Assembly: GCF_000717175.1 (NCBI RefSeq)
Contig: NZ_JNYD01000049.1
Span: 1 to 27,430, forward strand
Length of the DNA: 27,430 bases
Direction: 5' to 3'
Origin: Pseudonocardia autotrophica
GTDB lineage: Bacteria; Actinomycetota; Actinomycetes; Mycobacteriales; Pseudonocardiaceae
A program made the position numbers and the translations under genes. The notes under the pieces are model-generated. The model worked only from the letters and a program-made list of their open reading frames with translations. It did no database searches and was not told the DNA's origin. Positions 1,888 through 19,469 of this stretch are shown here, piece by piece. Within the stretch, counting starts at the first letter, position 1; every line of letters starts with the position of its first letter.

Positions 1888-3348
1888 TCAGCGGGCCACG
1901 ACCCGCACGGTCTCCAGCTTCGGATCCGCCGGGTCGGGCAGCACCATCCCCGCCCGCAGGCCCGTGGCGAGGTAGTCGAGGATCTCCCCGGTCACACGCT
2001 CGCCCGGCAGCAGCACCGGGATGCCCGGCGGGTACGGGGTGACCTGCTCGGCGCAGACCCGCCCCTCGGCCTCCCGCAGCGGCACGTCCTCGAAGGGCGC
2101 GAAGAAGGCGTCCCGGGGGATCATCTCGGCGTCGGTCTCGAGGGCGGACTTGCTCGGCAGGTCGACGGGCGGCGGAGTGTCGAACCCGTCGGCCGCCTTC
2201 GCCATGGCCGAGAGGGCCTCGAGCAGGGTCCCGGCCGTCTGCGCGTCGTCGGCCAGGCTCAGCTGGGCCTCGATCCGGCGGTGGTCGGACAGCCCGACGT
2301 CGACCGCGCGGTGCCCGCGCAGCCAGTCGGCGGCCTGGTAGCCGCTGATCCCGAGCTCCGACAGGTCGATCAGCACCTTCAGCTCGTCGAGCTCGTGCGA
2401 GGCCTCCGCGCCGAGGAGCTGGTCCCGCAGCGGGGTCAGCCCGGGGATCGCGTCGACCTGCCGGCGGACGTCGGCGGCCAGGTCGAGCGCCCGGCCGAGC
2501 AGCTCGTGGCCGTGCTCCACCATCTGCCGCCGCCAGCCGTCCATCCCGGCCCACAGCAGGACGTTGGGGCTGGTCGTCGAGAGCATGTCGGCGCAGGCGG
2601 CCAGGAACGTCGGGTCGATCAGGTCGCCCTGCTGGTGGAACACCGAGCCCTGCTCCAGCCCGGCGCCCATCTTGTGGATGCTGACCACGCAGAGGTCCGC
2701 GCCCGCGTCCATCGCCCAGGTCGGCAGCCGCTCGTGGAAGGGCAGGTGCGCGCCCCAGGCCTCGTCGACGAGCAGCGGCAGCCCACGCGCGTGGCACAGC
2801 TCGGCGATGGCGGAGATGTCCGCGCAGGTGCCGTAGGGCGTCGGGCTCGTGATCAGCACTCCGGCGACGTCGGAGTCCCGCTCGAGGGCCCGTTCGACGT
2901 CGGCGGGCGAGGGCGGGTGGGCGAGGTGCTGGTCGCGGTCGTAGCGGGGGGACACCCACACCGGCTGCAGGCCCGAGAGCACAAGCCCGGAGATCACGGA
3001 CTTGTGGGCGTCCCGGCCCACGAGCAGCCGCCCGTGCCGGCCGGCCACGGCGAGCATCGCGCTCTTCACCGACAACGAGCTGCCGCAGGTGGAGAAGAAG
3101 GCGTTCTCGGCGCCGACGGCGTCGGCCATGAGCTCCTGGGCCCGGGCGATGATCCCGGAGGACGAGGCCCGGTCGTCGAGCCCGCTCGAGGCGAGGACGT
3201 CGGCGCGGAAGACGTCCTCGCCCAGGACCGCCCGCACCCGCGGATCGGCGCCGCGGCCCTGCTTGTGGCCGGGCGGGGTGAACGGGGTGTGGTGCTCGCG
3301 GTGGTAGGCCTCGAGGGCGTCCAGCACCGGTGCCTGCGTGTGGTCCAC
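1888..3348 (-). CDS. Orn/Lys/Arg decarboxylase-family PLP enzyme (short form)
   Basis: This 486-residue fold-type I PLP enzyme belongs to the lysine/ornithine/arginine decarboxylase family. Visible landmarks are the N-terminal FTPPGHKQGRG block, the PLP-ring contact segment STCGSSLSVKSAML (residues 86-99), the cofactor aspartate in VDEAWGAHLPF (Asp195), and the Schiff-base lysine in VSIHKMGAGLEQGSV (Lys226). It lacks the response-regulator-like N-terminal wing domain of the E. coli inducible decarboxylases (over 700 aa), as is usual for Gram-positive and actinobacterial members. Substrate (lysine, ornithine or arginine) cannot be told from the sequence. A GTG start at 3348 follows GGAGGG on the minus strand. 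It faces away from the Dap operon, so a link to that operon is only conceivable. Confidence 0.85.
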   Translation of the reverse strand: MDHTQAPVLDALEAYHREHHTPFTPPGHKQGRGADPRVRAVLGEDVFRADVLASSGLDDRASSSGIIARAQELMADAVGAENAFFSTCGSSLSVKSAMLAVAGRHGRLLVGRDAHKSVISGLVLSGLQPVWVSPRYDRDQHLAHPPSPADVERALERDSDVAGVLITSPTPYGTCADISAIAELCHARGLPLLVDEAWGAHLPFHERLPTWAMDAGADLCVVSIHKMGAGLEQGSVFHQQGDLIDPTFLAACADMLSTTSPNVLLWAGMDGWRRQMVEHGHELLGRALDLAADVRRQVDAIPGLTPLRDQLLGAEASHELDELKVLIDLSELGISGYQAADWLRGHRAVDVGLSDHRRIEAQLSLADDAQTAGTLLEALSAMAKAADGFDTPPPVDLPSKSALETDAEMIPRDAFFAPFEDVPLREAEGRVCAEQVTPYPPGIPVLLPGERVTGEILDYLATGLRAGMVLPDPADPKLETVRVVAR

Positions 3349-4275: not shown

Positions 4276-5253
4276 ATGCCGATCGTGACCGGTCCGCAGG
4301 AATTCACCGAGGAGCGACTGTTCGTCGACCTCCGCTCGATCGTCGGACACGAGCTGTACCTGAAGTGCGAGGGCTTCAACTTCGCCGGCTCCGTGAAGCT
4401 CAAGGCCGCCGCCTCCATGGTCGAGGCCGCCGAGCGCGCGGGGGAGATCGGGCCCGGCTCGACGCTCGTCGAGTCCTCGTCCGGCAACCTGGGCGTGGCG
4501 CTGAGCATCATCGCCGCCAACAAGGGCTACCGCTTCATCTGCGTCACCGACATCCGCTGCAACGCCGCCACCATCCAGCTGATGGAGGCCATGGGCACGG
4601 ACGTCCGCGTGATCCGCGAGGCCGGCCCCGAGGGCTACCTCGGTGCGCGCCAGGCGTACGTGCGGGCCGTCCTCGCGGCCGACCCGCGCGCCCACTGCCT
4701 GAACCAGTACAGCAACCCGAACAGCTGGAAGGCGCACTTCCGCACCACCGCGCCGGCCATCGCCGAGGAGTTCCCGCAGCTCGACGTGCTGTTCGTCGGC
4801 GCCGGCACCACCGGCACGCTGATGGGCTGCGCCCGCTGGTTCCGCCAGTACCGCCCGGACGTGCACATCGTGGCCGTCGACGCCGTCGGCTCGGTGACCT
4901 TCGGGCAGCCCTCCGGGCGCCGGCTGATCCCCGGCCTGGGCACCAGCGTCGTGCCGGAGATCTTCGACCGGTCCTACATCGACGACGTGGTGTTCGTCGA
5001 GGAGGCCGACGCGGTCGCCATGTGTCACCGGATCGCGAGAAAGGGCTTTCTCTTCGGCGGATCTACGGGCACGGTGGTCAGCGGCGCGAAGGCCTGGCTG
5101 GACCAGAACTCGGCCGGGCACCTCACGTCGGTAACGCTCGCCCCCGATCTGGGCGAACGCTACTTGGAGACGCTGTACCGAACCGAGTGGGTCCGGGACA
5201 ACTTCGGCGAGGACGTGCTCGTCGAGCCGGCCGACGAGAGCCTGGTGGCCTGA
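4276..5253 (+). CDS. sbnA: SbnA-type N-(2-amino-2-carboxyethyl)-L-glutamate synthase (Dap pathway, step 1)
   Basis: This 325-residue PLP enzyme of the cysteine-synthase fold has the usual SbnA length. In Staphylococcus, SbnA condenses O-phosphoserine with glutamate to give the substrate of SbnB. Lys41 in FNFAGSVKLKAA is the expected Schiff-base lysine, at the position of SVKDR in cysteine synthases. SSSGNLGVAL (67-76) is the substrate loop and GAGTTGTLMG (176-185) the PLP-phosphate loop. The ATG at 4276 is chosen because it is preceded by GGGGGGAGA at good spacing; the reading frame is open further upstream but that part does not resemble the family. The next gene starts 5 bp after the stop, and sbnB is the last gene of the same run, so the operon makes L-2,3-diaminopropionate as a building block. 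Confidence 0.92.
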   Translation: MPIVTGPQEFTEERLFVDLRSIVGHELYLKCEGFNFAGSVKLKAAASMVEAAERAGEIGPGSTLVESSSGNLGVALSIIAANKGYRFICVTDIRCNAATIQLMEAMGTDVRVIREAGPEGYLGARQAYVRAVLAADPRAHCLNQYSNPNSWKAHFRTTAPAIAEEFPQLDVLFVGAGTTGTLMGCARWFRQYRPDVHIVAVDAVGSVTFGQPSGRRLIPGLGTSVVPEIFDRSYIDDVVFVEEADAVAMCHRIARKGFLFGGSTGTVVSGAKAWLDQNSAGHLTSVTLAPDLGERYLETLYRTEWVRDNFGEDVLVEPADESLVA

Positions 5254-5257
5254 GAAG

Positions 5258-8200
5258 ATGGCACTGCTGCCGCCCACCCCGGGGCACGCCCCGGCGGAGG
5301 CCCCCGCGGGCCCGCCCGCCCCGCTCTCGGAGCTGGTCCTCGTCGACCGGCACGAGGCGCAGGGCTGGCGGGTCCGTCGCCACGAGCGCCTGGACTCGGT
5401 GTTCGAGGAACGGTGCGACTGGATCCGGGAGTACGGCCGCGCCGGCCAGCTCGCCGTCGACGGCCCCGGGGCCTCGCTGACCTACGACGAGCTCGACGCC
5501 CGCGCCAACCGTCTCGCCCGCTACCTGCGCCTGCACGGCGCCCGCCCCGGCGACCGGGTCGCCCTGCTGTTCGACGTCCGGGTCGAGACCTACGTCGCCC
5601 TCCTCGCGGTCCTCAAGATCGGCGCGACCTGCGTGCCGCTGGACCCCGACGCCCCGACCGAGCGGCTCGGCTTCCTCGTGGCCGACGCCGAGGTCCGGCT
5701 CGTGCTCACCCGCTCGCACCTGCGCGGACGGGTCGCCGTCGTCGGGTCGCTGCCCGCGGGCGCCGAGATCCTGGCCGTCGACGACGCCGCCGCCCTGATC
5801 GCCGAGATGAGCCCGCAGCGGCTGCAGCCCGCCGAGCGCGGCGAACCCGTCGACCGGCCCGCGTACGTCGTGCACGTACCCGGCCCCGCCGGCTGGTCCG
5901 AGCGCGTGGAGATCGACCACCGCAGCATGTGCAACGCCGTCCGGGTCTCGTCCGAGACCTTCGGTGTCCGCGGGCACCGCCTCTACCAGGGCCGGGCCCT
6001 GTTCTCCGGAGGCGGCATCGAGGAGGTCTGGATGGCCTGGGCGGCCGGCGCCACGCTGGTGCCCGCACCCGACGGCCCGCGCCTCGTCGGCGATGTCCTG
6101 CACGCCGTCCTGGCGGAGCGCCGGGTCACCGCGCTGTGCACCACCCCGGCCGTGCTGGCCACGCTGGAGGCGGACCTGCCCCAGCTGCGGTTCCTGCTGG
6201 TCTCGGGGGAGGCCTGCCCCCAGAGCCTGGTCGCGCGCTGGCACCGGCCGGCCCGCCGGTTCCTCGTCGCGTACGTGCCGCCGGGCGCGACCGTGGCGGC
6301 GACCTGGACGGACGCGCACCCCGACAAGCCGATGACGATCGGCGTGCCGCTGCCGACCTTCGCGACCGTCGTCCTCGACCCCGAGGAGCCGGCGCGGGCG
6401 TTGCGGCACGGCGAGACCGGCGAGATCGGCGTGGCCGGGCTCGGCCTCGCCTGCGGCTTCCCCGACCCCGCGGGCGACGCCTTCGTCGATGACTTCCTCG
6501 GCATCCCCGGCAACCCGTCGGGGCGGATCTACCGGACCGGCGACCTCGGCCGCGTCGACGACGCCGGCGAGATCGAGTACCGCGGCCGCCGGGCGCTGCA
6601 GGTGCTGGTGCACGGCGAGCGCGTCGACCTCACCGCGATCGAGTCGGTGATGCTGGCGGTGCCCGGGGTGGCGTCGGCGGCGGTCGCGCCGCACGAGCCC
6701 GAGCCCGGCGCCACCGAGCTGGTCGGCTTCTACACGCTGCGCGCCGACAGCCCGGCGGTCACGGAGCGGGAGATCGGGTCGTGGCTGCGCGAGCGGCTGG
6801 CGACGGACCACGTGCCGGCCCGCCTGGAGCGGCTGGACTCGCTGCCGCTGACCGCCGACGGACGGGTGGACCGCGAGGCCCTGCCGCTCAACGGGGGCGA
6901 GATGACGCGGCTGCGCGCCGAGAACGCGCGGCTGCACGAGCAGCTGGAGCAGCTGCGGCCGCCGGTGACGCCGGTCGACGCCGCGCCTCCCGTCCCGCCC
7001 GCGCCTCCCGTCCCGCCGCCCTCTGCCCCGGCGGTGCTTCCCGCGCCGGCCGTGTCTCCTGCGCCTCCTGCCCCGCCTGCGTCGGGGAACCTCACGTTCG
7101 ACCAGATCATCGGGTCGACCTCTCCGGCTCCGGCGTCGCCGGCGGCTCCCGCTCCGGCGCCTCGGCCCGAGCCGCAGCCGGGCGTCCTGACGTTCGACCA
7201 GATCATCGGCTCGACGGCGGTAGCGCCGGCTCCGCCGGCGACCCCGACCCCGACCCCGACCCCGACGCCGGCGCCTTCGCGTGAGCCGCAGCCGGACGTG
7301 CTGACGTTCGACCGGATCATCGGGTCGACCGCCGCCCCGTCCCTGGCTCCGACCCCCCTTCCTGCAGTGACCGCGCTTCCTGCAGTGACCCCGCTCCCTG
7401 CAGCGACCCCGCCTCCTGCACCGACTCCGCCCCCGGCGCCAGCCCCGGCCCAGGAGAAGCCGGCGACGAGGCGGCCCACGCCCTACCCGCGGGCGAGCGC
7501 TCCGGCGCCGGTGCGGCCCACGCCCTACCCGCGGCAGACCGGCCCGGGCCCGAGCCCCGCGCCGAACCCGATGCCGAGCCCGGCCCCGCGTCCGGCGGCG
7601 TCCGCGCCGACGCAGGCCCCGCGGCCCGCCGGCCCGGCGCCCTCGCCGTTCCCGCGCTCGACCCGACCGACGCCGTTCCCGCGGACCTCGGCTCCCCTGA
7701 CGCCGACACCCTTCCCGCGGACCCCGGTCCCGGCCCGTCCCGCCCCGGCCCCGCGGCCGGTCGCGCCGCCGGCCCCGGCGCCCGTTCCGGCGCACACCTC
7801 AGCCGCCCCGGCCGCCCTGGCCCCCGCCCCGGCCGCCCCGGCGCCCGCCCCGGCCAAGGCCCCGTCCTCCGCGGGCCTCGCCTCGGCGCTGGCGAGCGTG
7901 CTGGCCGAGGTGCTGGCGGTGGAGCACGTCCCGACCGACCGCAACGTCTTCGACGACCTCGGCGCCGACTCGATGGTGATGACCCGGTTCTGCGCCCGGT
8001 TGCGCAAGCGGGCCGACCTGCCGTCGATCTCGATCAAGGACGTCTACGCTCACCCGACGATCGCCGGGCTCGCGACCGCCTTCGCGCCGTCGATGCCCGT
8101 CGCCGCCCCGGTCGTCCCCGTGGGCGCGGCCGGCGACGACGTCGTCCACGGGCTGGCCCAGGTGCTGGCCGAGGTGCTCGGCGTAGACCGCGTGCCGACG

Positions 8201-10636
8201 GACCGCAACGTGTTCGACGACCTGGGCGCCGACTCGATGGTGATGACCCGGTTCTGCGCCCGGTTGCGCAAGCGGGAGGACCTGCCGTCCATCTCGATCC
8301 GGGACGTCTACGCCAACCCGACGATCGCCGGAATGGCCGCCGCGGCCGCGCCGAGCGCCGTGGCCCCGGCGCCGGTGCAGGCCGCGCCCGCGCCGGTCGT
8401 CCCGGTGCGGCACAGCACGTTCGGCTACTACCTCACCGGGTTCCTGCAGCTGCTGGTGTTCGCGCTCTACGCGACCGCCGCCGGCGTCGTCATGGACCGG
8501 GCCTACAGGTGGATCTCCACGAGCACCACCGTGCTCGAGACCTACATCCGGTCGGTCGAGGCCGGGGCGGGCGCGTTCCTGGCGCTGTGCCTGCTGCCGG
8601 TCGTCGCGAAGTGGGTGCTGGTCGGGCGCTGGAAGGAGAAGGAGTTCCCGGTCTGGAGCCTGCGGTACTTCAGGTTCTGGCTCGTGAAGACACTCGTGCG
8701 CGGCAACCCGATCGCCCTGCTGATGGTCGGCTCGCCGATCTATACGCTCTACCTGCGCGCCCTCGGGGCGAAGGTCGGCAGGGACGTCGTGATCCTCACC
8801 CGGAACCTGCCGGTCTGCACCGACCTGGTGACGATCGGCTCGGGCACGGTCATCCGCAAGGACGCCCTGATGCCGGGCTACCGCGCGCACGCGGGCAAGA
8901 TCCAGACCGGACGGGTCACGCTGGGCCAGGACGTCGTCGTCGGCGACAAGAGCGTGCTGGACATCGGCACCGCCATGGGCGACGGCGCGCAGCTGGGGCA
9001 CGCGTCCTCGCTGCACCGCGGGCAGAGCGTCCCGGCGGGGCAGAGCTGGCACGGCTCGCCGGCCGTCCCCACGGACACCGACTTCCGCGCCGTCCCGCCC
9101 GTGCGGATCCGGGCGCTGCGCAAGGTCAGCTATGTGACGAGCCAGCTGGTCAAGCTGTTCGCGATCTACCTGCCGCTGGGCTTCGGCGGGCTCTACATCG
9201 TGGTGAACGCCGTGCCGCGGTTCAAGGAGCTGCTCCAGCCCGGCGTCCTCGGGTACACCACCTCGGCGTTCTACCTGGAGGCCCTGGCCGAGTCGGCGAT
9301 CATCGTCTTCGGCGGCCTGGCCGTCGGGCTGCTGATCGTGCTCACCGTCCCGCGGCTGGTGGCCCTGTTCGTCCGGCCGGACCGCGTGTACCCGATGCAC
9401 GGGTGGCGGTACTCGCTGCACCGCACCGTCACCCGGCTGACGAACGTGAAGACCTTCGTCTACCTGTTCGGGGACAGCTCGTTCATCGTCGGCTACCTGT
9501 ACCTGCTGGGGTACGACCTCGGCAAGGTCGAGCAGACCGGCTCGAACTTCGGCTCGGCCATCGCCCAGGAGACGCCGTTCCTCACCTCGGTGGGCCGCGG
9601 CACCGTCGTCGCCGACGGACTGTCGGTGAACAACGCCGACTTCTCCAACACCTCGTTCCGCACCGCGCGGGTCGCCATCGGCCGCAACAGCTTCCTCGGC
9701 AACGCCATCGCCTACCCGATCGGCGGGCGCATCGGCGACGACTGCCTGCTCGCCACCAAGGTCGCGGTGCCGGTCGACGGTCCGGTCCGGCACGGGGTGG
9801 GCCTGCTCGGGTCGCCCGCCTTCGAGATCCCCCGCACCGTCCAGCGGGACCGGGTGCTGGAGATCGACATGCGGGAGCGCCGCCGCCGGCTGCGCCGCAA
9901 GAACCTGCACAACCTCGTCACCATCGGCCTCGCGCTGCTGGTGCGCTGGGGCCACGTCCTCGGCCTGCTGCTGCTGGGCCTGCTGGCGCTGGACCACTTC
10001 CAGGACTTCGGCGCGGTGGCGTTCGGGCTGGAAGTGGTGGCGAGCCTGCTGTTCACGATCGTCTGGTTCGTGCTGTGGGAGCGGCTGATCGTCGGCTTCC
10101 GCCGGCTCCGCCCGAAGTCCTGCTCGATCTACGACAAGGCCTTCTGGCGCCACGAGCGCTTCTGGAAGCTCGTGGTCCCGCCGATGGAGAAGCTGCTCGG
10201 CGGCACGCCGTACAAGAACCTCGTCGCGCGGATGCTCGGGGTCCGGGTGGGCCGCCGGGTGTTCGACGACGGCATCGGCCTCACCGAGCGCACGCTGACC
10301 GCCATCGGCGACGACTGCACGCTTAACTTCGGCACCACCATCCAGTGCCACTCGCAGGAGGACGGCGCCTTCAAGTCCGACCGCACCACGCTCGGTGCGG
10401 GCGTGACCCTCGGCCTCGGCGCCTTCGTCCACTACGGCGTCACCATCGGCGACGCCGCGGAGATCGCCCCCGACTCCTTCGTCATGAAGGGCGAGGAGAT
10501 CCCGGCGGGCGCCCGTTGGGGCGGCAACCCGGCCCACGAGCTGGCCGACCCGCCCGCGCCGGTCCCGCCCGCCCTCCCGTCCCCGACCGACCGGGGCGCG
10601 TCCGACTGGACCGCCGCCCTGCTCACGGCCCGCTAG
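5258..10636 (+). CDS. Pls/PosA-type membrane homopolyamino-acid synthetase with degenerate A domain and two tandem carrier domains
   Basis: This 1792-residue protein has the Pls layout: A-domain-like region (about 45-545), short coiled coil (about 550-567), Pro/Ala linker (about 568-870), two PCPs with phosphopantetheine serines Ser905 and Ser993 (LGADSMVMTRFC in both), then a membrane part. Predicted TM segments lie near 1056-1078, 1103-1124, 1292-1320, 1344-1373, 1550-1583 and 1585-1614. They surround three soluble segments, the last containing hexapeptide (left-handed beta-helix) repeats at about 1650-1760. In Pls and the poly-Dap synthetase these segments perform iterative condensation. 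The A region is degenerate: A3 reads YVVHVPGPAGWSERV, the A4 aspartate aligns with Gly251, A5 reads AYVPPGATV without Glu, and the A10 lysine is Arg536. A7 (YRTGDLGR) is kept. The frame is open throughout, so this is not a frameshift. No C or TE domain is present. Confidence 0.9.
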   Translation: MALLPPTPGHAPAEAPAGPPAPLSELVLVDRHEAQGWRVRRHERLDSVFEERCDWIREYGRAGQLAVDGPGASLTYDELDARANRLARYLRLHGARPGDRVALLFDVRVETYVALLAVLKIGATCVPLDPDAPTERLGFLVADAEVRLVLTRSHLRGRVAVVGSLPAGAEILAVDDAAALIAEMSPQRLQPAERGEPVDRPAYVVHVPGPAGWSERVEIDHRSMCNAVRVSSETFGVRGHRLYQGRALFSGGGIEEVWMAWAAGATLVPAPDGPRLVGDVLHAVLAERRVTALCTTPAVLATLEADLPQLRFLLVSGEACPQSLVARWHRPARRFLVAYVPPGATVAATWTDAHPDKPMTIGVPLPTFATVVLDPEEPARALRHGETGEIGVAGLGLACGFPDPAGDAFVDDFLGIPGNPSGRIYRTGDLGRVDDAGEIEYRGRRALQVLVHGERVDLTAIESVMLAVPGVASAAVAPHEPEPGATELVGFYTLRADSPAVTEREIGSWLRERLATDHVPARLERLDSLPLTADGRVDREALPLNGGEMTRLRAENARLHEQLEQLRPPVTPVDAAPPVPPAPPVPPPSAPAVLPAPAVSPAPPAPPASGNLTFDQIIGSTSPAPASPAAPAPAPRPEPQPGVLTFDQIIGSTAVAPAPPATPTPTPTPTPAPSREPQPDVLTFDRIIGSTAAPSLAPTPLPAVTALPAVTPLPAATPPPAPTPPPAPAPAQEKPATRRPTPYPRASAPAPVRPTPYPRQTGPGPSPAPNPMPSPAPRPAASAPTQAPRPAGPAPSPFPRSTRPTPFPRTSAPLTPTPFPRTPVPARPAPAPRPVAPPAPAPVPAHTSAAPAALAPAPAAPAPAPAKAPSSAGLASALASVLAEVLAVEHVPTDRNVFDDLGADSMVMTRFCARLRKRADLPSISIKDVYAHPTIAGLATAFAPSMPVAAPVVPVGAAGDDVVHGLAQVLAEVLGVDRVPTDRNVFDDLGADSMVMTRFCARLRKREDLPSISIRDVYANPTIAGMAAAAAPSAVAPAPVQAAPAPVVPVRHSTFGYYLTGFLQLLVFALYATAAGVVMDRAYRWISTSTTVLETYIRSVEAGAGAFLALCLLPVVAKWVLVGRWKEKEFPVWSLRYFRFWLVKTLVRGNPIALLMVGSPIYTLYLRALGAKVGRDVVILTRNLPVCTDLVTIGSGTVIRKDALMPGYRAHAGKIQTGRVTLGQDVVVGDKSVLDIGTAMGDGAQLGHASSLHRGQSVPAGQSWHGSPAVPTDTDFRAVPPVRIRALRKVSYVTSQLVKLFAIYLPLGFGGLYIVVNAVPRFKELLQPGVLGYTTSAFYLEALAESAIIVFGGLAVGLLIVLTVPRLVALFVRPDRVYPMHGWRYSLHRTVTRLTNVKTFVYLFGDSSFIVGYLYLLGYDLGKVEQTGSNFGSAIAQETPFLTSVGRGTVVADGLSVNNADFSNTSFRTARVAIGRNSFLGNAIAYPIGGRIGDDCLLATKVAVPVDGPVRHGVGLLGSPAFEIPRTVQRDRVLEIDMRERRRRLRRKNLHNLVTIGLALLVRWGHVLGLLLLGLLALDHFQDFGAVAFGLEVVASLLFTIVWFVLWERLIVGFRRLRPKSCSIYDKAFWRHERFWKLVVPPMEKLLGGTPYKNLVARMLGVRVGRRVFDDGIGLTERTLTAIGDDCTLNFGTTIQCHSQEDGAFKSDRTTLGAGVTLGLGAFVHYGVTIGDAAEIAPDSFVMKGEEIPAGARWGGNPAHELADPPAPVPPALPSPTDRGASDWTAALLTAR
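7091..7330 (+). repeat. Three copies of a short LTFD[QR]IIGST motif inside the Pro/Ala linker
   Basis: The linker of the Pls-like protein carries LTFDQIIGST at residues 612-621 (7091-7120), LTFDQIIGST at 644-653 (7187-7216) and LTFDRIIGST at 682-691 (7301-7330). They are spaced 32 and 38 residues apart, and the sequence between is mostly Pro/Ala/Thr. Hydrophobic islands in a disordered chain look like repeated short docking motifs; function is inferred. Downstream, RPTPYPR/RPTPFPR-like motifs recur to about residue 830. Confidence 0.8.
7934..8333 (+). repeat. Tandem duplication of a carrier-protein domain
   Basis: The two PCP domains of the Pls-like protein are nearly identical from VPTDRNVFDDLGADSM to DVYA(H/N)PTIAG. 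At DNA level 7961-8012 and 8225-8276 are identical over 52 bases around the phosphopantetheine serine codon, while the flanks differ mostly at synonymous positions. This indicates recent duplication or continuing gene conversion. Confidence 0.85.
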
Positions 10637-10646
10637 GAGCCCCCCG

Positions 10647-13600
10647 ATGACCACGCCGTCCGGCCCGTTCACCCCGTTCACCCCGACGACGCCCGTCCTG
10701 ACCCCGGAGAGCCTGATGACCTCGCCGACCGCCGCCCCGACCTGCGCCCCCGGCAGCGCGGCCCGCGTCTGGTGGACCGCCGCGCTCACGGCGGGCGGGC
10801 ACACCACGGTCCCGCGCTGGACCCTCGAGCCGCGCCCGGGCGTCGCGCTCGTGGAGGTGGCGTTGCCCGGTCCGGTGACCGAGGCCGCGCTGGTCGCCGC
10901 CCACGCCACGGTGCTGGCCGCGGTGTCCGGCGAGCCCGAGACCGTCGCCGGGCTGGTGACGCCGGCCGGGCCGCTGCCGTTGCGCCTGCCCGTGGTGCCC
11001 GGCCCGTGGCGCACCCTGGTCGAGGCCGCCGGGCGGACCGCCGCCGAGCTGCACACCCACCAGGACTTCCCGGTCGACGGGCTGCGCGCCGAGCTCGGCG
11101 TGTCCGGTCCGGTGTTCGAGACCGTCGTCGACCCCGCCGGGCCGGCGCCGGAGCCCACGGGGGAGGTCGTGCTCACCGTCGGCGTCCGCGACGGGCACCT
11201 GCAGCTGCGGCACCGCACGGACGTCCTCGACGCCGCCGCCGGGTCCCGGATCGGGGGCTACCACCTCGCCGCGCTCGCGCAGCTCACCGCCGATCCCGAC
11301 GCCGACCACACGGCGTCGACGCTGCTCTCCGACGAGGAGCGCGCCTTCCAGCTGGAGGGCCTCGCCGGGCCGACCCGACCGCTGCCCGACCGGCGCTTCC
11401 ACGAGCTGGTCGAGGAGCGCGTCCGCCGGCACCCCGACGCCGTCGCCGCCGTTCAGGGCGACGTCCGCTGGACCTACGCCGAGCTGAACGACCGCGCCAA
11501 CCGTCTCGCCCGCGCGCTGCGTGCCCGTGGGCTGGAGCGCGAGGGCGTCGTGGGCGTGGTGATGGAGCGCAACCTCGACTGGATGGCCGCCGTGCTCGCC
11601 GTGTTCAAGGCGGGCGGGGTGTACCTGCCGATCGAGCCGCACTTCCCCGCCGAACGCATCCGCAAGACGCTGACCCGCGGCGACGCGGTCCTGGTCGTCA
11701 CCGAGCCGGGCAGCACGGAGACCCTCGACCGCGCCCTCGACGCGCTGCCCGAGGTCCGCGTGCTCACCCCGGCCACCGCGCTCGCGGAGGAGCCCGACGG
11801 CTCCGACCTCGGCATCGAGGTCGGCCCCGACCAGGCCGCGTACGTCTACTTCACCTCCGGCTCCACCGGCGAGCCCAAGGGCGCGATGTGCGAGCACGCC
11901 GGGATGCTCAACCACCTGCTCGCCAAGATCGAGGACCTGGAGATCGCCGAGGGCGCGGTCGTCGCCGAGATCGCCCCGCAGTGCTTCGACATCTCGCTCT
12001 GGCAGCTGGTGTCGGCGCTGCTGGTCGGCGGCCGGACCGTCGTGGTGGACCAGGACTCGATCCTCGACGTCGAGCGGTTCGTGGACACCGTCGTCGGCGA
12101 GCGGGTCGCGGTCATGCAGGTCGTGCCGTCCTACCTCGAGGTGGTGCTGTCCTACCTGGAGCGCACCGGCCGCGCGCTGCCCGACCTGCGGTGTGTCTCG
12201 GCGACCGGCGAGGCCCTGAAGACCGAGCTGGCCCAGCGCTTCTTCGGGCAGGTGCAGGGTGTGTCGCTGGTCAACGCCTACGGCCTGACCGAGACCTCCG
12301 ACGACACCAACCACGAGGTCATGCGGTCCGCTCCGGCCAAGGTCCTGCTCGGCCCGGCGGTGCGCAACGTGCGGGTGTACGTGACCGACGAGAACCTCGA
12401 GCCGGTCCCGCTCGGCGCGCCCGGTCTGATCTGCTTCGCCGGCGTCTGCGTGGGCCGCGGGTACGTCAACGACCCGGAGCGCACGCGCGCGGTCTACCTG
12501 ACCGACCCGCACGTGCCGGGGGAGCGGCTCTACCGCGGCGGCGACTACGGCCGCTGGACGCCCGAGGGCAAGCTCGAGTTCCTCGGCCGCCGGGACAGCC
12601 AGGTCAAGATCCGGGGTTTCCGCATCGAGATCGGCGAGATCGAGAACGCGCTGCTGGGCATCCCCGGGGTGCGCGACGGTGCCGTCGTCGTGGCCGAGCG
12701 GCCGGGCGCGGGTGCGCAGCTGGTCGCCTTCTACGCCGCCGCCGAGGACCTGCCCGTCGACCTGCTGCGGGACGGACTGGCCCGGACGCTGCCGGTGTAC
12801 ATGGTTCCCGCGGCCTTCCACCGCCGGGAGCCGTTGCCGCTCACCGCCAACGGCAAGATCGACAAGAAGGCGCTGACCGCGCTCGCCGCCGAGCTGGGCC
12901 AGGAGCCCGCCGCGGCCGCCGACCACGAGGCTCCGGCGACCCCCGCCGAGCAGCGGCTGGCCGCCGCGTTCGCCCAGATCCTCGGGGTGCCGGAGGCGGA
13001 GATCAGCCGGCACGACCACTTCTTCGACCGCGGCGGCTCGTCGCTGTCCGCGGTGAAGCTCGCGGTCGCGCTGGACCGGGCGGTGTCGCTCAAGGACATC
13101 ACCCGCAACCCGGTGCTCGCCGACCTCGCCACCCTGCTCGACGCACCCGCCCAGCCGGCCGACCCGGCCGTCGCCGCCGCCCCGGCGGAGCTGCTGCAGC
13201 CGCTGGTCACCGGGGCCGACCCGGGCCGGGCGCTGATCTGCTTCCCGCCGGCCGGTGGCAACGCCGTCAACTTCCGGCCGGTGGCCACCGAGCTCGGCGC
13301 GCTGTCCGGCCTCACCGTGTACGGCGTCGAGCCGCCCGGCCACGACCCGTCCACCACGGAGAAGTTCGTGCCGCTCGGCGAGATCGTCGACCGCGTCGTC
13401 GCCGAGATCGCCACGAAGAACCTCACCCGCGTGCTCCTGTGGGGGCACTCCTCGGGCACGGCGTACGCCGTCGCCGCGGCCCGGGCGCTGGACGAGCGGG
13501 GCGTGCGGGTCGAGCTGGTCGTCCTGTCCTCGCAGCAGCTCGGCGACCCGATGACCCGGCGGAACGGGATCGTCGAGCTGTCCGGCCGGTCGGACGCCGC

Positions 13601-13946
13601 GCTGGTCGACCGGCTGCGCGAGACCGGCCTGTACCCGGAGCTGGCCCAGCTCGACCCGGAGGGGGCCCAGCGGGTCGCGGCGGCGTACCGCCACGACTGC
13701 ATCGAGGCGCACCGCTACCTGGCCGACGCCGCCACGTCCGGGATCAAGGTCACCCCGCCCGTCGCGGTGGTCCGGGCCGCGGACGACCCGAGCACGGCGG
13801 ACGAGTCCCGGCGCCGGGACTGGGAGCTCCTGGCGGGGGAGGTGCAGACCCGAGAGCTGGACGGGGGCGGGCACCACTTCCTCCGGAGCCGGCCCCACGA
13901 CGCGGCGGTCGTCGTACTCGACGCGGTCCGCGCCGCCTCTTCCTGA
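10647..13946 (+). CDS. Stand-alone NRPS: C-domain remnant, A domain (diamino acid), PCP, thioesterase
   Basis: This 1099-residue protein starts 10 bp after the Pls-like gene. Residues about 35-235 resemble the C-terminal half of a condensation domain (HQDFPVDGLRAELG; LRHRTDVLDAAA) without HHxxxDG. The A domain (about 245-770) is intact: A3 FTSGSTGEPKG (402-412), A5 NAYGLTET (543-550), A7 YRGGDYGRW, A8 GFRIEIGEIE, A10 LTANGKIDKKAL. Reading the pocket by alignment to PheA from FDISLWQL, MQVVPSY, SATGEAL and NAYGLTETSDD plus the A10 Lys gives DIWQSTADDK, two residues from the Dab code DIWELTADDK of SyrE/PvdL. A PCP follows (DRGGSSLSA, Ser799), then an alpha/beta-hydrolase thioesterase with GHSSG (Ser935) and a C-terminal GGHHFL histidine. 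Inferred role: activate Dap, and transfer or release it. An alternative ATG at 10716 also has a ribosome binding site (GGAGA). Confidence 0.9.
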   Translation: MTTPSGPFTPFTPTTPVLTPESLMTSPTAAPTCAPGSAARVWWTAALTAGGHTTVPRWTLEPRPGVALVEVALPGPVTEAALVAAHATVLAAVSGEPETVAGLVTPAGPLPLRLPVVPGPWRTLVEAAGRTAAELHTHQDFPVDGLRAELGVSGPVFETVVDPAGPAPEPTGEVVLTVGVRDGHLQLRHRTDVLDAAAGSRIGGYHLAALAQLTADPDADHTASTLLSDEERAFQLEGLAGPTRPLPDRRFHELVEERVRRHPDAVAAVQGDVRWTYAELNDRANRLARALRARGLEREGVVGVVMERNLDWMAAVLAVFKAGGVYLPIEPHFPAERIRKTLTRGDAVLVVTEPGSTETLDRALDALPEVRVLTPATALAEEPDGSDLGIEVGPDQAAYVYFTSGSTGEPKGAMCEHAGMLNHLLAKIEDLEIAEGAVVAEIAPQCFDISLWQLVSALLVGGRTVVVDQDSILDVERFVDTVVGERVAVMQVVPSYLEVVLSYLERTGRALPDLRCVSATGEALKTELAQRFFGQVQGVSLVNAYGLTETSDDTNHEVMRSAPAKVLLGPAVRNVRVYVTDENLEPVPLGAPGLICFAGVCVGRGYVNDPERTRAVYLTDPHVPGERLYRGGDYGRWTPEGKLEFLGRRDSQVKIRGFRIEIGEIENALLGIPGVRDGAVVVAERPGAGAQLVAFYAAAEDLPVDLLRDGLARTLPVYMVPAAFHRREPLPLTANGKIDKKALTALAAELGQEPAAAADHEAPATPAEQRLAAAFAQILGVPEAEISRHDHFFDRGGSSLSAVKLAVALDRAVSLKDITRNPVLADLATLLDAPAQPADPAVAAAPAELLQPLVTGADPGRALICFPPAGGNAVNFRPVATELGALSGLTVYGVEPPGHDPSTTEKFVPLGEIVDRVVAEIATKNLTRVLLWGHSSGTAYAVAAARALDERGVRVELVVLSSQQLGDPMTRRNGIVELSGRSDAALVDRLRETGLYPELAQLDPEGAQRVAAAYRHDCIEAHRYLADAATSGIKVTPPVAVVRAADDPSTADESRRRDWELLAGEVQTRELDGGGHHFLRSRPHDAAVVVLDAVRAASS

Positions 13947-13984
13947 CCGGACCCACGAGTCGCACACCCTCGGAAGGACAAGAC

Positions 13985-14977
13985 ATGACCCAGCCCGCAC
14001 CCGCACTGGACCTCACCCAGCGACCCGGTGGGCCCGTCGTCCTCACCACCACCGCGCCGCAGGGGCCCGCCGCGTGGGCCGCCCAGAACCGGGACACCGT
14101 CCGAAACCTGGTGACGCAGTACGGGCACCTGTTCGTGCGCGGCCTCGGCCTGCAGGACTGGGCGGCCACCGCGGCCGTCTTCCGCGGGCTCACGAACACC
14201 CTGCTCGGCGAGCGCGAGGCCTTCGCCCCGCGCCAGCACTTCGGCGACGGCGTGCACTCGTCGACCTCGTGGCCCGCCAACCAGCAGATGTGCATGCACC
14301 ACGAGCTGAGCTACACGCTCGAGTTCCCGGGCCTGATGCTGTTCGCCTGCCTCAACCCGCCCGCGTCCGGCGGCGCCACCACGGTCTCCGACGCCTCCGC
14401 GGTGCTCGAGGCGCTGCCCGCCGACCTCGTCGCCCGCTTCGAGCGCGAGGGCTGGATGCTCACCCGCACGTACAACGACGAGATCGGCGCCTCGTGGCCG
14501 GACGCCTTCGGCACGGACGACCGCGGCGCCGTCGAGGCCTACTGCCGCGGCAACGCGATCGACTTCGAGTGGACCGCCGACGGCGGCCTCAAGACCCGGC
14601 AGCGCCGGCTCGCCGTCGTCAGGCACCCGGTCAGCGGCGCGCGGTGCTGGTTCAACCAGATCGCCTTCCTCAACGAGTTCACGCTCGACCCGGACGTCCG
14701 CGAGTTCCTCGTCGACACCTACGGCCCCGACGGCCTGCCGTTCACCACGAGGTTCGGCAACGGCGACCCGATCGGCCCCGAGGTCATCGCGCTGATCAAC
14801 GACGTCTACACCGCCCACACGCTGCGCGAGCCGTGGCAGGCCGGTGACCTGCTGCTCGTCGACAACGTCCGCTGCGCGCACAGCCGGGAGCCCTACCAGG
14901 GCGACCGGCAGGTGCTCGTCGGGCTGGCCGACTCGGTCAAGCTCGCCGACTGCGCCCCGCAGGGCGGTGCCCGGTGA
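13985..14977 (+). CDS. SyrP/clavaminate-synthase-like Fe(II)/2-oxoglutarate dioxygenase (TauD/TfdA family)
   Basis: This 330-residue protein has a complete iron site: H105-x-E107 in MCMHHELSYTLEFPG and a distal histidine in NVRCAHSREPYQGDRQVLVG (His299), with Arg308 placed to bind 2-oxoglutarate. The HxE form and the segment around it resemble SyrP and related enzymes, which hydroxylate the beta-carbon of carrier-bound amino acids, and clavaminate-synthase relatives. The ATG at 13985 follows GGAAGGACAAG, 38 bp after the NRPS stop. It overlaps sbnB by GTGA. Position between an A-PCP-TE gene and sbnB suggests it oxidises Dap, free or carrier-bound; whether it hydroxylates or does another oxidation cannot be told from sequence. 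Confidence 0.88.
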   Translation: MTQPAPALDLTQRPGGPVVLTTTAPQGPAAWAAQNRDTVRNLVTQYGHLFVRGLGLQDWAATAAVFRGLTNTLLGEREAFAPRQHFGDGVHSSTSWPANQQMCMHHELSYTLEFPGLMLFACLNPPASGGATTVSDASAVLEALPADLVARFEREGWMLTRTYNDEIGASWPDAFGTDDRGAVEAYCRGNAIDFEWTADGGLKTRQRRLAVVRHPVSGARCWFNQIAFLNEFTLDPDVREFLVDTYGPDGLPFTTRFGNGDPIGPEVIALINDVYTAHTLREPWQAGDLLLVDNVRCAHSREPYQGDRQVLVGLADSVKLADCAPQGGAR

Positions 14978-16050
14978 CGGCCGTCGACCCCGCCGCAGAT
15001 CGCACGGCAGAGCCCTCGGGCACCGGGCTCACGGTGCCGCCGTTCGCGGTCGTCTCCGGATCGCAGGTCCAGGGGGCGCTGGCGGGACGGGAGCGCGAGA
15101 TCACCGACCTGGTCGAGGCCACCTACCGGCTGCACGGGGCGGGGGACACGGTGAACCCGCCGTCGTACTTCCTGCGGTTCCCGGACCGGCCGACCTCACG
15201 GATCATCGCGCTGCCGGCCTCGCTCGGCGGGCAGACCCCGGTCGACGGGCTGAAATGGATCTCCAGCTTCCCCGGCAACGTCCAGGCCGGGATCCCGCGC
15301 GCCTCCGCCGTGCTGATCCTCAACGACCACGACACCGGCTACCCCTTCGCCTGCATGGAGAGCTCGATCATCAGCGCCACCCGCACCGCCTCCTCGGCGG
15401 CGCTCGCGGCGGACCGGCTGAGCGAGGGGCGCAAGCGGCCGACCCGCGTCGGGTTCTTCGGCACGGGCCTGATCGCGCGGTACATCCAGACCTTCCTCGC
15501 CGGGACCGGCTGGGAGTTCGAGGAGATCGGCGTGTTCGACCTGTCGGCGGACAGCGCCGCCGGCTTCCGCGGGCACCTCGAACGCACGGGCACGCCGGGC
15601 CGGGTCACGCTGTACGACACCCCCGAGGAGCTGATCCGGGGCAGCGACCTGGTGGTCTTCGCGACGATCGCCGGCACCCCGCACGTCACGGACGTCTCGT
15701 GGTTCGACCACGGGCCGCTGGTCCTGCACGTCTCGCTGCGCGACCTCGCGCCGGAGATCCTGCTGGAGGCGACCAACTACGTCGACGACGTCGAGCACTG
15801 CCTCAAGGCGGACACGTCGCCGCACCTGGTGGAGCAGCGGCTCGGGCACCGGGACTTCCTGGCCGGGACGCTCGACGACGTCCTGTCCGGGCGCGCGTCG
15901 GTGCCGGCCGAGGGCACGGTGATCTTCTCGCCGTTCGGGCTGGGCGTGCTCGACCTGGCCGTCGGGAAGTACGTGTACGACCAGATCGTGCGGGCGGGGG
16001 AGCTGCAGGTCGTCGACGGGTTCTTCCACGAGTTGAAGCGACACGGGTAG
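14974..16050 (+). CDS. sbnB: SbnB-type 2,3-diaminopropionate synthase (Dap pathway, step 2)
   Basis: This 358-residue protein belongs to the ornithine-cyclodeaminase/mu-crystallin family. SbnB oxidatively splits N-(2-amino-2-carboxyethyl)-L-glutamate with NAD+ to L-Dap and 2-oxoglutarate. The family segment GLKWISSFPGNVQAGIPRAS is present, as is the Rossmann loop VGFFGTGLIARYI (glycines from about residue 160). The GTG start overlaps the dioxygenase stop by four bases. The 2-oxoglutarate released is the cosubstrate of the neighbouring dioxygenase, which is neat but may be incidental. With sbnA at the other end of the operon the Dap pathway is complete. Confidence 0.93.
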   Translation: MTAVDPAADRTAEPSGTGLTVPPFAVVSGSQVQGALAGREREITDLVEATYRLHGAGDTVNPPSYFLRFPDRPTSRIIALPASLGGQTPVDGLKWISSFPGNVQAGIPRASAVLILNDHDTGYPFACMESSIISATRTASSAALAADRLSEGRKRPTRVGFFGTGLIARYIQTFLAGTGWEFEEIGVFDLSADSAAGFRGHLERTGTPGRVTLYDTPEELIRGSDLVVFATIAGTPHVTDVSWFDHGPLVLHVSLRDLAPEILLEATNYVDDVEHCLKADTSPHLVEQRLGHRDFLAGTLDDVLSGRASVPAEGTVIFSPFGLGVLDLAVGKYVYDQIVRAGELQVVDGFFHELKRHG

Positions 16051-17238: not shown

Positions 17239-17254
17239 TTCTAAGGTCGTGACC

Positions 17255-18760
17255 ATGACGGCCGCCTCCGTGGTGTCGCCCGCGGCGGACGCGACCGCTC
17301 GGGCGCGGTGGCGCGCGCTCGCGCTCACCGACCCGATCGCGCGGCTGGTGCGCAACGCCGCGCACGCCGGGATCGACGACGAGCTGTTCGACCTCCGCCA
17401 GCTCGCGCTGGCCGCCGTGGACCTCGTCGTCGGGTCGATGGGCTTCGCGCGCGAGGCCACCCTGGAGGAGGTCGCGGACGACCTGACCGCGCTCGCGGCC
17501 CGGATGCGGCCGGACCGCGCACACCAGGCCCGGGACGTCGCGCAGGTGGTGCTGAAGGGCCTGCTCAACGAGGCGCACGAGCACCGCCGGTTCACCTACT
17601 GGTTCGCCGACCTCTCCGGGGACCGGGTCGAGCGCGAGCCCTACAGCTTCCGCCTGCTGTCGCTGCGCGAGGCGGAGTACGGGCCGGTGCTCACGGCGTC
17701 GGACCAGGCGATCACGTTGTTCCTGCACGGGCTCGACGTCGACCTGGAGGACGCGGACCGCGCCCTCGCCCACGTCCTGCAGCGCCAGCTCGACGACCGC
17801 CGCTTCGACGCCGCGGTCCGCACCGCCGCCCAGGCCGAACGCACGTCGGTGGGCATCGCGGCGACGTTGTCCGAGCTGCTCGACGCCACCCGGCGGGACG
17901 TCGGCAGCCACGACTGGCTGGTCGACGTGCCGGAGCGGCTCGCGATCGCCCGCCGGCACGTGGAGGAGCGGATCGCGGAGGACGACCGGTTCCTCGAGCA
18001 CGTGCAGAGCGGGCTCGACGCCGAGACGAGCGGGGACGTGCGGGCGGCGTCCGGCCGCATCGTCGACCTGCTCGGGCGGGTCCGGCAGGTGCACCTCGAC
18101 CTGGAGAGACGGCTGGTGGGCGCCCGTGAGGTCTTCCTCGCCGCCCAGGTCCGGCAGCGACTGACGAAACGGCGCCGGCTGCGGATGCTCGCCCTCGGGG
18201 AGGACGTGCTGCGCCCCGCCCTGGACCTGCCGCGCGAGCAGGCGGTGGAGGTCACCACCGCGTTCGCCGATCGCTCGCTCGGGGTCGGCGTGCCCCGGCT
18301 CGTCCGGTTCGACGACCTGCTCGACCAGCTCTGGGCGCCGCCGCGTCAGCGGGAGACCGTCGAGCCGGTGGCGGAGGAGGCCGGCCTCGAGGAGGCGGCC
18401 GAGGAGGACGTCCAGCGCTACCCCGCGGCCGTCGTCGAGGGAGCGCGCGAGGTGCTGTCCGCGGCCCGGGTGACCGAGGAGGGGGCCGCCCTGTCCGAGC
18501 TGCTCGAGGCGAGCGGGGACGACGAGGTCGCCGAGCTCGTGCTGCTCACGGCGCTGTGGGCGTTCGCCCCTGACCCCGCGGCGGACGAGGAGGACCCGGA
18601 CGGCTCGGTCGAGCTGGCCGGGGGCCTGGAGGCGCTGGACGAGGGCGTCGAACTGGACCATCGGCTGGCCCGGGGGCGGGACCTCCGGATACGGCCCCTG
18701 CGCCTGGGTGTCGAAGAGGAACCGTCGATCGCGGACGAACTGGAGGCTGTGGGTGAGTGA
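17255..18760 (+). CDS. jetA: Wadjet JetA, kleisin-like subunit
   Basis: This 501-residue, largely helical protein begins LTDPIARLVRNAAHAGIDDELFDL after a short leader. By order (A-B-C-D), size and neighbours it is the JetA (MukF/kleisin-like) subunit of a Wadjet system, which bridges the SMC heads and the JetB KITE protein. The C-terminal quarter is acidic. ATG at 17255 is 8 bp from AAGG; GTG at 17249 is an alternative two codons upstream. It overlaps jetB by 8 bp. The identification depends mostly on the neighbouring jetC and jetD, as JetA sequences are poorly conserved. Confidence 0.78.
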   Translation: MTAASVVSPAADATARARWRALALTDPIARLVRNAAHAGIDDELFDLRQLALAAVDLVVGSMGFAREATLEEVADDLTALAARMRPDRAHQARDVAQVVLKGLLNEAHEHRRFTYWFADLSGDRVEREPYSFRLLSLREAEYGPVLTASDQAITLFLHGLDVDLEDADRALAHVLQRQLDDRRFDAAVRTAAQAERTSVGIAATLSELLDATRRDVGSHDWLVDVPERLAIARRHVEERIAEDDRFLEHVQSGLDAETSGDVRAASGRIVDLLGRVRQVHLDLERRLVGAREVFLAAQVRQRLTKRRRLRMLALGEDVLRPALDLPREQAVEVTTAFADRSLGVGVPRLVRFDDLLDQLWAPPRQRETVEPVAEEAGLEEAAEEDVQRYPAAVVEGAREVLSAARVTEEGAALSELLEASGDDEVAELVLLTALWAFAPDPAADEEDPDGSVELAGGLEALDEGVELDHRLARGRDLRIRPLRLGVEEEPSIADELEAVGE

Positions 18761-19469
18761 CGCCGTCGCCGCGGATCTGACCGAGGTGCGCGCCGCCGCG
18801 GAGCTGCTGGCGTTCGGCCTGCAGCGCAGAGCGAGGCCCGTCGAGGGCAGCGACTACCGCGCCCTCCTGGACCGATACCGCACCGAGCTGCGGTTCCGGG
18901 ACGTCGTGGACACGATGGCCGAGGGCCTCGGTCTGGAGGCGCTGGGCACCCCACGCTCCGGGATCGTGCTCGCCCCCGAGCCCGGTGGCCCGTTCGCCAC
19001 CCGGCTCACCGACTTCCGGGCCATGGACCAGTCCGAGCGCCTGGTGTTCGGACTGGTCCTGATCGGCATCGCCGCCTACGCCTACCCCCAGGACGTGGAC
19101 TTCGACGATCCGGAGACCAAACTGGTGGACCTGGTGAAGGTGGACGAGTTCCTGCGCGCGGCCGTCGACACCCTCAAGGCCCAGGAGGGTGGCGAGGGCA
19201 CGCCGGAGGAGCGGGCGCGGGTCGCGGCCGAGATCTACAGCGACATGCCCCAGCTGATCACCACGCAGACCGGGCGCCGGGGTCGCGGCTGCACCCTCAA
19301 GGCGATCGAGGACGCCCTCGGCTGGCTGGTGGACCAGGGCGCCGCCCGCGAGGCCACCTCGCTGGGGCCGGATGTCTACCACCTCACCGACCGGTTCCGG
19401 CTGCTCGTCGCGGACTCGGCGGGCGGGGCGGCCCTGGACGCGCTGCGCGAGCTGCGGGCGGCCTCGTGA
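18753..19469 (+). CDS. jetB: Wadjet JetB, KITE-like subunit
   Basis: This 238-residue protein is a probable tandem winged-helix (MukE/KITE-like) subunit. Recognisable parts are SDYRALLDRYRTELRFRDVVDTMAEGL near the N-terminus and RGCTLKAIEDALGWLVDQGAA, a winged-helix-like segment near the C-terminus. The GTG at 18753 overlaps the jetA stop, and the stop overlaps the jetC start (GTGA), so production is coupled. Assigned by order and size between jetA and the SMC gene. Confidence 0.78.
   Translation: MSDAVAADLTEVRAAAELLAFGLQRRARPVEGSDYRALLDRYRTELRFRDVVDTMAEGLGLEALGTPRSGIVLAPEPGGPFATRLTDFRAMDQSERLVFGLVLIGIAAYAYPQDVDFDDPETKLVDLVKVDEFLRAAVDTLKAQEGGEGTPEERARVAAEIYSDMPQLITTQTGRRGRGCTLKAIEDALGWLVDQGAAREATSLGPDVYHLTDRFRLLVADSAGGAALDALRELRAAS

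Follow-up and report, generated by a model that had tools for sequence, protein, structure and literature searches.

We describe here a five-gene operon at positions 4276..16050 of a 27,430-nucleotide stretch of DNA (hereafter the window) that forms the start of contig 49 of the genome of the soil bacterium Pseudonocardia autotrophica. The genes, all on the + strand and closely spaced, encode in this order SbnA, a Pls-like membrane synthetase, a stand-alone protein with adenylation (A), peptidyl carrier protein (PCP) and thioesterase (TE) domains, a TauD-family dioxygenase, and SbnB. They probably constitute a split branch of the Pls/PosA synthetases, devoted to L-2,3-diaminopropionate (Dap), in which adenylation is likely provided in trans by the second protein. 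A single operon of this composition, with a SyrP-like dioxygenase, had been proposed in a preliminary description and is borne out by profile matches at the following positions:

4276..5253, + strand: SbnA, pyridoxal phosphate-dependent enzyme of Dap synthesis (TIGR03945, PF00291; ATG at 4276)
5258..10636, + strand: Pls/PosA-type membrane synthetase, 1792 amino acids (aa), with a degenerate A domain, a Pro/Ala-rich linker, two PCPs and a TIGR02353 domain
5438..6892, + strand: degenerate A domain of this synthetase, residues about 61-545 (core motifs lost relative to intact Pls proteins)
7868..8362, + strand: its two near-identical PCP domains, carrier serines 905 and 993
8423..10537, + strand: its membrane polymerisation domain (TIGR02353 and hydropathy)
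10647..13946, + strand: A-PCP-TE stand-alone activating protein, 1099 aa, with a half condensation domain, A, PCP and TE (PF00501, PF00550, PF00975)
10737..11381, + strand: half-size condensation-type domain of this protein (AlphaFold model matched to the PDB)
11382..12896, + strand: its intact A domain, code D-I-W-Q-S-T-A-D-D-K (alignment)
13985..14977, + strand: TauD/SyrP-like Fe(II)/2-oxoglutarate dioxygenase (PF02668, 147.2 bits)
14974..16050, + strand: SbnB, dehydrogenase of Dap synthesis (TIGR03944)

Domain structure of the two synthetase proteins

SbnA and SbnB both score above the curated equivalog cut-offs (370.8 bits against 349.95 for TIGR03945 and 411.1 bits against 326.9 for TIGR03944, respectively), and the C-terminus of the Pls-like protein matches TIGR02353 at 722.5 bits (cut-off 423.1), all three cut-offs being those of NCBIfam. 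This match, together with a carrier domain with an attachment serine ahead of the membrane domain, places the protein in the Pls/PosA family; the active A domain that members carry in the same protein is what it lacks. Its membrane domain contains six hydrophobic stretches in three pairs (1059-1080/1099-1118, 1297-1316/1338-1356 and 1553-1579/1583-1608, by hydropathy) around soluble segments, which fits the Pls/PosA topology of six helices forming three pairs around three soluble segments (PMC10522769). The hydropathy scan also marks residues 101-119, 458-476 and 870-888 outside the membrane domain, which are taken as soluble.

The A domain of the Pls-like protein matches PF00501 at 165.4 bits, and in a PDB search its top matches are linear gramicidin synthetase A domains; those of epsilon-polylysine synthetase (7wew, ninth) and PosA (8g95, tenth) are aligned among many others. 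In the alignment, its A3 loop reads YVVHVPGPAGWSERVEIDH instead of the YIIYTSGSTGRPKGVAVEH of intact Pls proteins, A4 reads FSGGGIEE instead of AFDFSIEE, with loss of the A4 Asp, A5 reads YVPPGA instead of YGPTEA, with loss of Thr-Glu, and the A10 lysine is replaced by arginine, these being the segments that we take to be motifs A3, A4, A5 and A10. Judging from these residues, the domain cannot plausibly adenylate, and a working one-protein Pls was rejected on account of the motif loss. The domain is nevertheless not drifting: its ratio of nonsynonymous to synonymous substitution rates (dN/dS) is 0.136 and 0.206 relative to loci L050 and L051, against 0.329 and 0.335 for the membrane domain, and relative to the more distant L053 the values are 0.420 and 0.481, a small difference. 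It may thus be kept as a constrained part, as a docking platform or in a structural role, and a decaying relic is not favoured, since between close relatives its evolution is slower than that of the membrane domain. The linker behind it contains 33% Pro and 21% Ala, and the peptide LTFD(Q/R)IIGST occurs three times, spaced along it (window 7091-7331, residues 612-691).

In the alignment of the separate A domain, the code DIWQSTADDK is found in 73 of 75 rows (one other row reads DIWQSTTDDK and one is mostly gap); only rows more than 60% identical were taken, which excludes the variant ligases described below, and the window is counted twice, as the query and as locus L049, a contig of Pseudonocardia halophobica VKM Ac-1069 that is identical to the window in 9/9 compared protein segments. 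The pocket region best matches 9n1u, whose title is silent on the substrate, and next that of the A domain in module 3 of PvdL, the diaminobutyrate (Dab) module. The code of Dab modules with a beta-hydroxyl is DVWQMIGDDK, and Dap and Dab codes are alike (PMC12283262). It has D, W, Q, D, D and K in common with DIWQSTADDK, the comparison being with this Dab-module code only, and a resemblance of the separate A domain's code to diamino-acid codes is supported at this level.

At E values of up to 1, Pfam matches nothing in the first 245 residues of the 1099-aa protein. The best 50 PDB matches listed for an AlphaFold model of residues 31-245 (mean predicted local distance difference test score 90.7; 35 sequences) are condensation domains of nonribosomal peptide synthetases (NRPSs) or related domains, about half of the single-domain target being covered. 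An uncharacterised N-terminal extension was set aside on the basis of these matches; no HHxxxDG motif was seen by eye in this half-size condensation-type domain. At the other end of the protein, all 50 rows (the query and 49 loci) contain the GxSxG motif of the TE.

Conservation and phylogeny of the split layout

When the dioxygenase was used to scan the genome collection, 406 relatives were obtained, and the loci around the best 80 of these 406 were examined. They belong to the Streptomycetaceae (51), Pseudonocardiaceae (19), Geodermatophilaceae (4), Propionibacteriaceae (2) and Thermomonosporaceae (1), three being unassigned. One contig (L106), which begins with the A domain and dioxygenase, is labelled as a betaproteobacterial metagenome-assembled genome; this would reflect either transfer or a binning error. 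At E <= 1e-40 a dioxygenase relative is found in 43 of 62 genomes of the genus, and at E <= 1e-100 in 11 of 197 evenly drawn genomes of the class (the window's own included), representing 4 of 91 genera. When considering the 61 loci with at least 6.5 kb upstream and at least 3.3 kb downstream of the dioxygenase (the other 19 being too short), all five genes, for which the preliminary description had suggested a genome search, are found in 58 (including L049, from the window's own species), which rules out a chance grouping. The incomplete loci are L069, without an SbnB match, L099 and L123. The order Pls/A-PCP/TauD/SbnB/SbnA prevails (52 of the 58 complete loci); in the remaining six SbnA comes first, as in the window.

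Seventy Pls-like proteins in the 80 loci have a full membrane domain; in seven of them, the window's own (L049) included, an A domain is present in degenerate or truncated form. For 59 of the remaining 63, no more than 260 residues lie between the start of the open reading frame (ORF) and the membrane domain, which leaves no room for an A domain (L119, one of the 59, is cut by the contig end); the exceptions are L123 (263 residues), L099 (355), L054 (378) and L118 (612; this locus contains 395 masked bases). The loss appears graded, the domain being partly degenerate in L053, without its end in L059 and reduced to its first part in L080 and L084. Each of the 69 aligned rows retains the PCP serine (L119 being too short to align); the carrier motif there is mostly of the LGANSL form, and a narrower PCP pattern missed 43 of the 70 proteins. 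Such a loadable carrier has no loader of its own, which argues for loading in trans.

In a FastTree phylogeny of 189 membrane domains, one branch (support 99) separates 73 rows with an intact A3 from the 116 others, and the same split is recovered by IQ-TREE with 52 chosen rows (Shimodaira-Hasegawa-like approximate likelihood ratio test 93). In both trees the A-less and A-degenerate proteins fall on one side of this branch. The label 'intact' refers here to the A3 pattern alone, and the tree proteins include the best 120 listed from a search with the window protein's own A and PCP region, genome context forming no part of the data. The topology is suggestive, rather than firm, evidence of a single loss of adenylation inside the Pls family. 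Adenylation in trans is well supported overall, because the motif loss, the intact separate A domain, the conserved layout, the kept carrier serine and the tree split all converge on it. The earlier proposal that adenylation has moved to a second protein therefore stands as regards the motif loss, the diamino-acid-like code and the conserved layout, with the qualification that the Pls-like protein still holds an A domain, albeit degenerate.

The splitting of activation can go further. In the variant loci L095, L099, L113 and L123, a PCP-membrane protein and the dioxygenase are accompanied by a stand-alone A-type ligase of TIGR03098 type and a small separate carrier protein, which together replace the A-PCP-TE protein. 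The L095 ligase scores 759 bits against TIGR03098 (cut-off 592.35) and those of the other three loci are 90-92% identical; the carrier has a PF00550 match in L099 and is recognised by similarity in all four. In L095 the start of an SbnA gene lies next to these genes. Twelve further 19-kb stretches around more divergent dioxygenases (L135-L146) were also examined. All five genes are present in four of them (L135, L137, L139 and L142), whereas L138 has SbnA, SbnB, the dioxygenase and part of an A domain with no Pls match, and L143 and L144 contain only a distant dioxygenase (31% and 37%), without a Pls domain or Sbn genes.

Proposed pathway and competing explanations

Based on these data, we consider it probable that the operon encodes a trans-loaded Pls/PosA branch in which the separate A domain feeds Dap, which is oxidised on the way, to a membrane polymerase that builds a short cationic peptide or polymer. 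As their families suggest, SbnA and SbnB would make L-Dap; the A domain of the 1099-aa protein would activate it and load its own PCP, and the same domain would also charge the PCPs of the Pls-like protein in trans. Such loading has precedents. CmnA-A1 loads Dap in trans onto CmnI in the capreomycin pathway (PMC12400406), and here too a Dap-specific A domain would charge the carrier of another protein, but CmnI ends in a condensation domain and has no Pls membrane domain. In the case of albicidin, ramoplanin and enduracidin, inactive A domains are complemented by stand-alone adenylation-thiolation (A-T) proteins (PMC8949500), a rescue similar to that proposed here, although these are multimodular NRPS lines and the available portion of that source mentions no Pls domain. 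The dioxygenase would then oxidise the PCP-bound Dap or peptide, and the six-helix membrane domain would link the units through amide bonds, giving a short cationic peptide or polymer that is based on Dap and contains oxidised residues. The TE, absent from part of the relatives, may be an accessory for release or editing.

The dioxygenase retains His105, Glu107 and His299 in 81 of 81 rows, that is, the HxE...H metal site of TauD enzymes expected of a SyrP-like protein. SyrP-type enzymes and TauD domains hydroxylate aspartate in siderophores (PMC8949500); they likewise belong to the TauD family and act with an A-PCP pair, but their substrate is Asp. The only solved structures found by the dioxygenase sequence are 1y0z and 9yut, neither of which is labelled SyrP. 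If free Dap is hydroxylated at C2 or C3, a hemiaminal results, both candidate carbons bearing nitrogen. Unless this nitrogen is acylated, a stable hydroxy-Dap residue is therefore doubtful, and so is the 102 Da repeat predicted in the preliminary description. Desaturation (84 Da residue), or oxidation once the amine is acylated, is as plausible as hydroxylation, and desaturation or deamination would yield masses other than that of hydroxy-Dap. A more specific proposal, which we put forward tentatively and judge possible rather than probable, is that this branch, widespread among actinobacteria, lost adenylation once and that its trans-fed membrane polymerase builds a polycation from carrier-oxidised Dap (e.g. 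dehydro-Dap or an N-acyl-hemiaminal), while the activation-oxidation part can instead feed ordinary NRPS lines. We know of no polymer of the dehydro-Dap or N-acyl-hemiaminal type.

Several observations weigh against the trans-loaded polymerase. The product is deduced from the genes, and the Dap specificity assigned to the separate A domain derives from its linkage and code. Some loci combine Pls-like proteins and dioxygenases without the separate activating protein: in L136 and L141 only Pls, dioxygenase and SbnA are present, with neither SbnB nor the A-PCP protein, L140 combines a degenerate-A Pls and a dioxygenase with no A-PCP or Sbn match in 19 kb, and the same pair occurs on the P. alni plasmid L147 with no A-PCP or Sbn gene among the annotated genes. 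The genome of the window itself encodes three further degenerate-A Pls proteins (L129, L130 and L132, on contigs 4, 3 and 15), whose membrane domains are 76-78% identical to that of the operon and which have no other A domain within 15 kb. Conversely, NRPS-type genes accompany the A-PCP protein, dioxygenase, SbnB and SbnA in L145 (A-KR-PCP) and in L146 (condensation, A, methyltransferase and PCP), where the stretch examined has no Pls membrane-domain match, and on the Kitasatospora plasmid L148 (5497-19216) the dioxygenase and a 62%-identical A domain are part of a larger NRPS cluster, likewise with no Pls domain in the stretch examined. These last three loci count against a strict homopolymer view. 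Since the activation-oxidation part pairs there with NRPS-type genes, the Pls-like protein is not its only partner; A-PCP and dioxygenase appear to form a portable unit, most likely making oxidised Dap on a carrier, for which the Pls domain is the commonest but not the sole outlet.

The same three loci are also consistent with a small product, in which the A-PCP-TE protein and the dioxygenase together produce a single oxidised Dap unit, the Pls domain contributing one or a few bonds, so that anything from a dipeptide to a short oligomer, but no polymer, results. The TE domain found in 49 of the 80 loci fits this scheme, and poly-Dap (PDAP) is itself merely 0.5-1.5 kDa in size (PMC4668381). However, no TE match is found in 18 of the 58 complete loci, and homopolymers are the products of those characterised Pls/PosA synthetases that the PosA paper names (PMC10522769); we hold a small product to be rather unlikely, though it is the strongest of the rivals. 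A siderophore-like metal chelator containing Dap, with the oxidised residue as a metal ligand, would agree with the role of SbnA/SbnB-derived Dap as precursor of staphyloferrin B (PMC11162802; see also PMC11479980) and with the siderophore hydroxylations by SyrP-type and TauD enzymes cited above (PMC8949500). Yet when the 709 gene-like ORFs that lie outside the operon in the 80 loci are grouped into families, the largest ones occur in 9, 9, 7 and 7 loci; with no outside gene common to more than nine loci, no conserved uptake or export gene is seen within about 10 kb, and we consider a chelator very improbable. Finally, polymerisation by the Pls-like protein through its own A domain, the A-PCP-TE protein and dioxygenase being a separate neighbouring pathway, can draw on the PF00501 score and the purifying selection on that domain, but is hardly credible given the loss of A3, the A4 Asp, the A5 Thr-Glu and the A10 Lys, the many relatives (most of them) with no A domain at all on this protein, and the tight linkage and close spacing of the five genes.

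Genomic context, known systems and significance

As the preliminary description had noted, no MbtH or phosphopantetheinyl transferase gene was seen in the window; one match to each of these families (PF03621 and PF01648) lies elsewhere in the genome. A companion genome of the same species has an identical dioxygenase. A second SbnA above the cut-off is encoded on contig 22, and a second cluster of this kind was rejected there, as the 19.5 kb examined has no SbnB or dioxygenase match and only A domains of 26% identity. Also in this genome is a Pls paralogue (L131, contig 2; 856 aa) consisting only of a PCP and the membrane domain, near a proline-racemase-family gene. Upstream of the operon and divergent from it, a protein at 1888-3348 (- strand) is weakly similar to lysine/arginine/ornithine decarboxylases, under their cut-offs. 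Just downstream (17249-24921, + strand) is a Wadjet-type defence operon (JetA3/JetC3/JetD3 models), three of whose four proteins are matched by PADLOC; the second protein (18708-19469), without a match, occupies the JetB position. Outside this genome, the plasmid L148 also encodes an SbnA-like enzyme of only 31% identity and carries genes for a lyase-family protein and a kinase, which may represent another Dap route. A proteomics study of Streptomyces scabies mentions an SbnB homologue in the neighbourhood of sbnA and of an NRPS gene (PMC11479980). Two Streptomyces plasmid sbnB clusters were set aside as relatives, being different clusters that both include a tryptophan-halogenase-family gene.

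The known cationic homopolyamino-acid synthetases have adenylation, carrier and membrane domains in one protein (PMC10522769), in agreement with the preliminary description, which had placed activation and polymerisation together in described systems. This holds for PosA (delta-poly-L-ornithine) and epsilon-polylysine synthetase, whose terminal membrane domain is of the same family as that of the window and whose A domains are active and in the same protein (PMC10522769). It also holds for the poly-Dap synthetase of Streptomyces albulus PD-1, with A, PCP and membrane domains in one protein and an A domain shown to prefer Dap (PMC4668381). That system resembles the operon in deriving Dap from cysteine-synthase-like and ornithine-cyclodeaminase-like enzymes and in having a membrane domain with three tandem soluble segments; it differs in its one-protein synthetase, which is split here, and in that neither a dioxygenase nor a separate A-PCP-TE protein is described in the available part of its account (PMC4668381). 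No description of the split layout was found in the open-access papers searched, most subscription papers lying outside that scope. The operon thus represents a genuine and conserved variation on the Pls/PosA systems that, within the reach of this literature search, is undescribed. With activation placed in a separate protein, it offers a natural route to study or reprogram the membrane polymerisation domain alone, as its carrier should load from outside, and it leads one to expect, in Streptomyces, Amycolatopsis, Pseudonocardia and other genera, a class of oxidised cationic peptides built on Dap.

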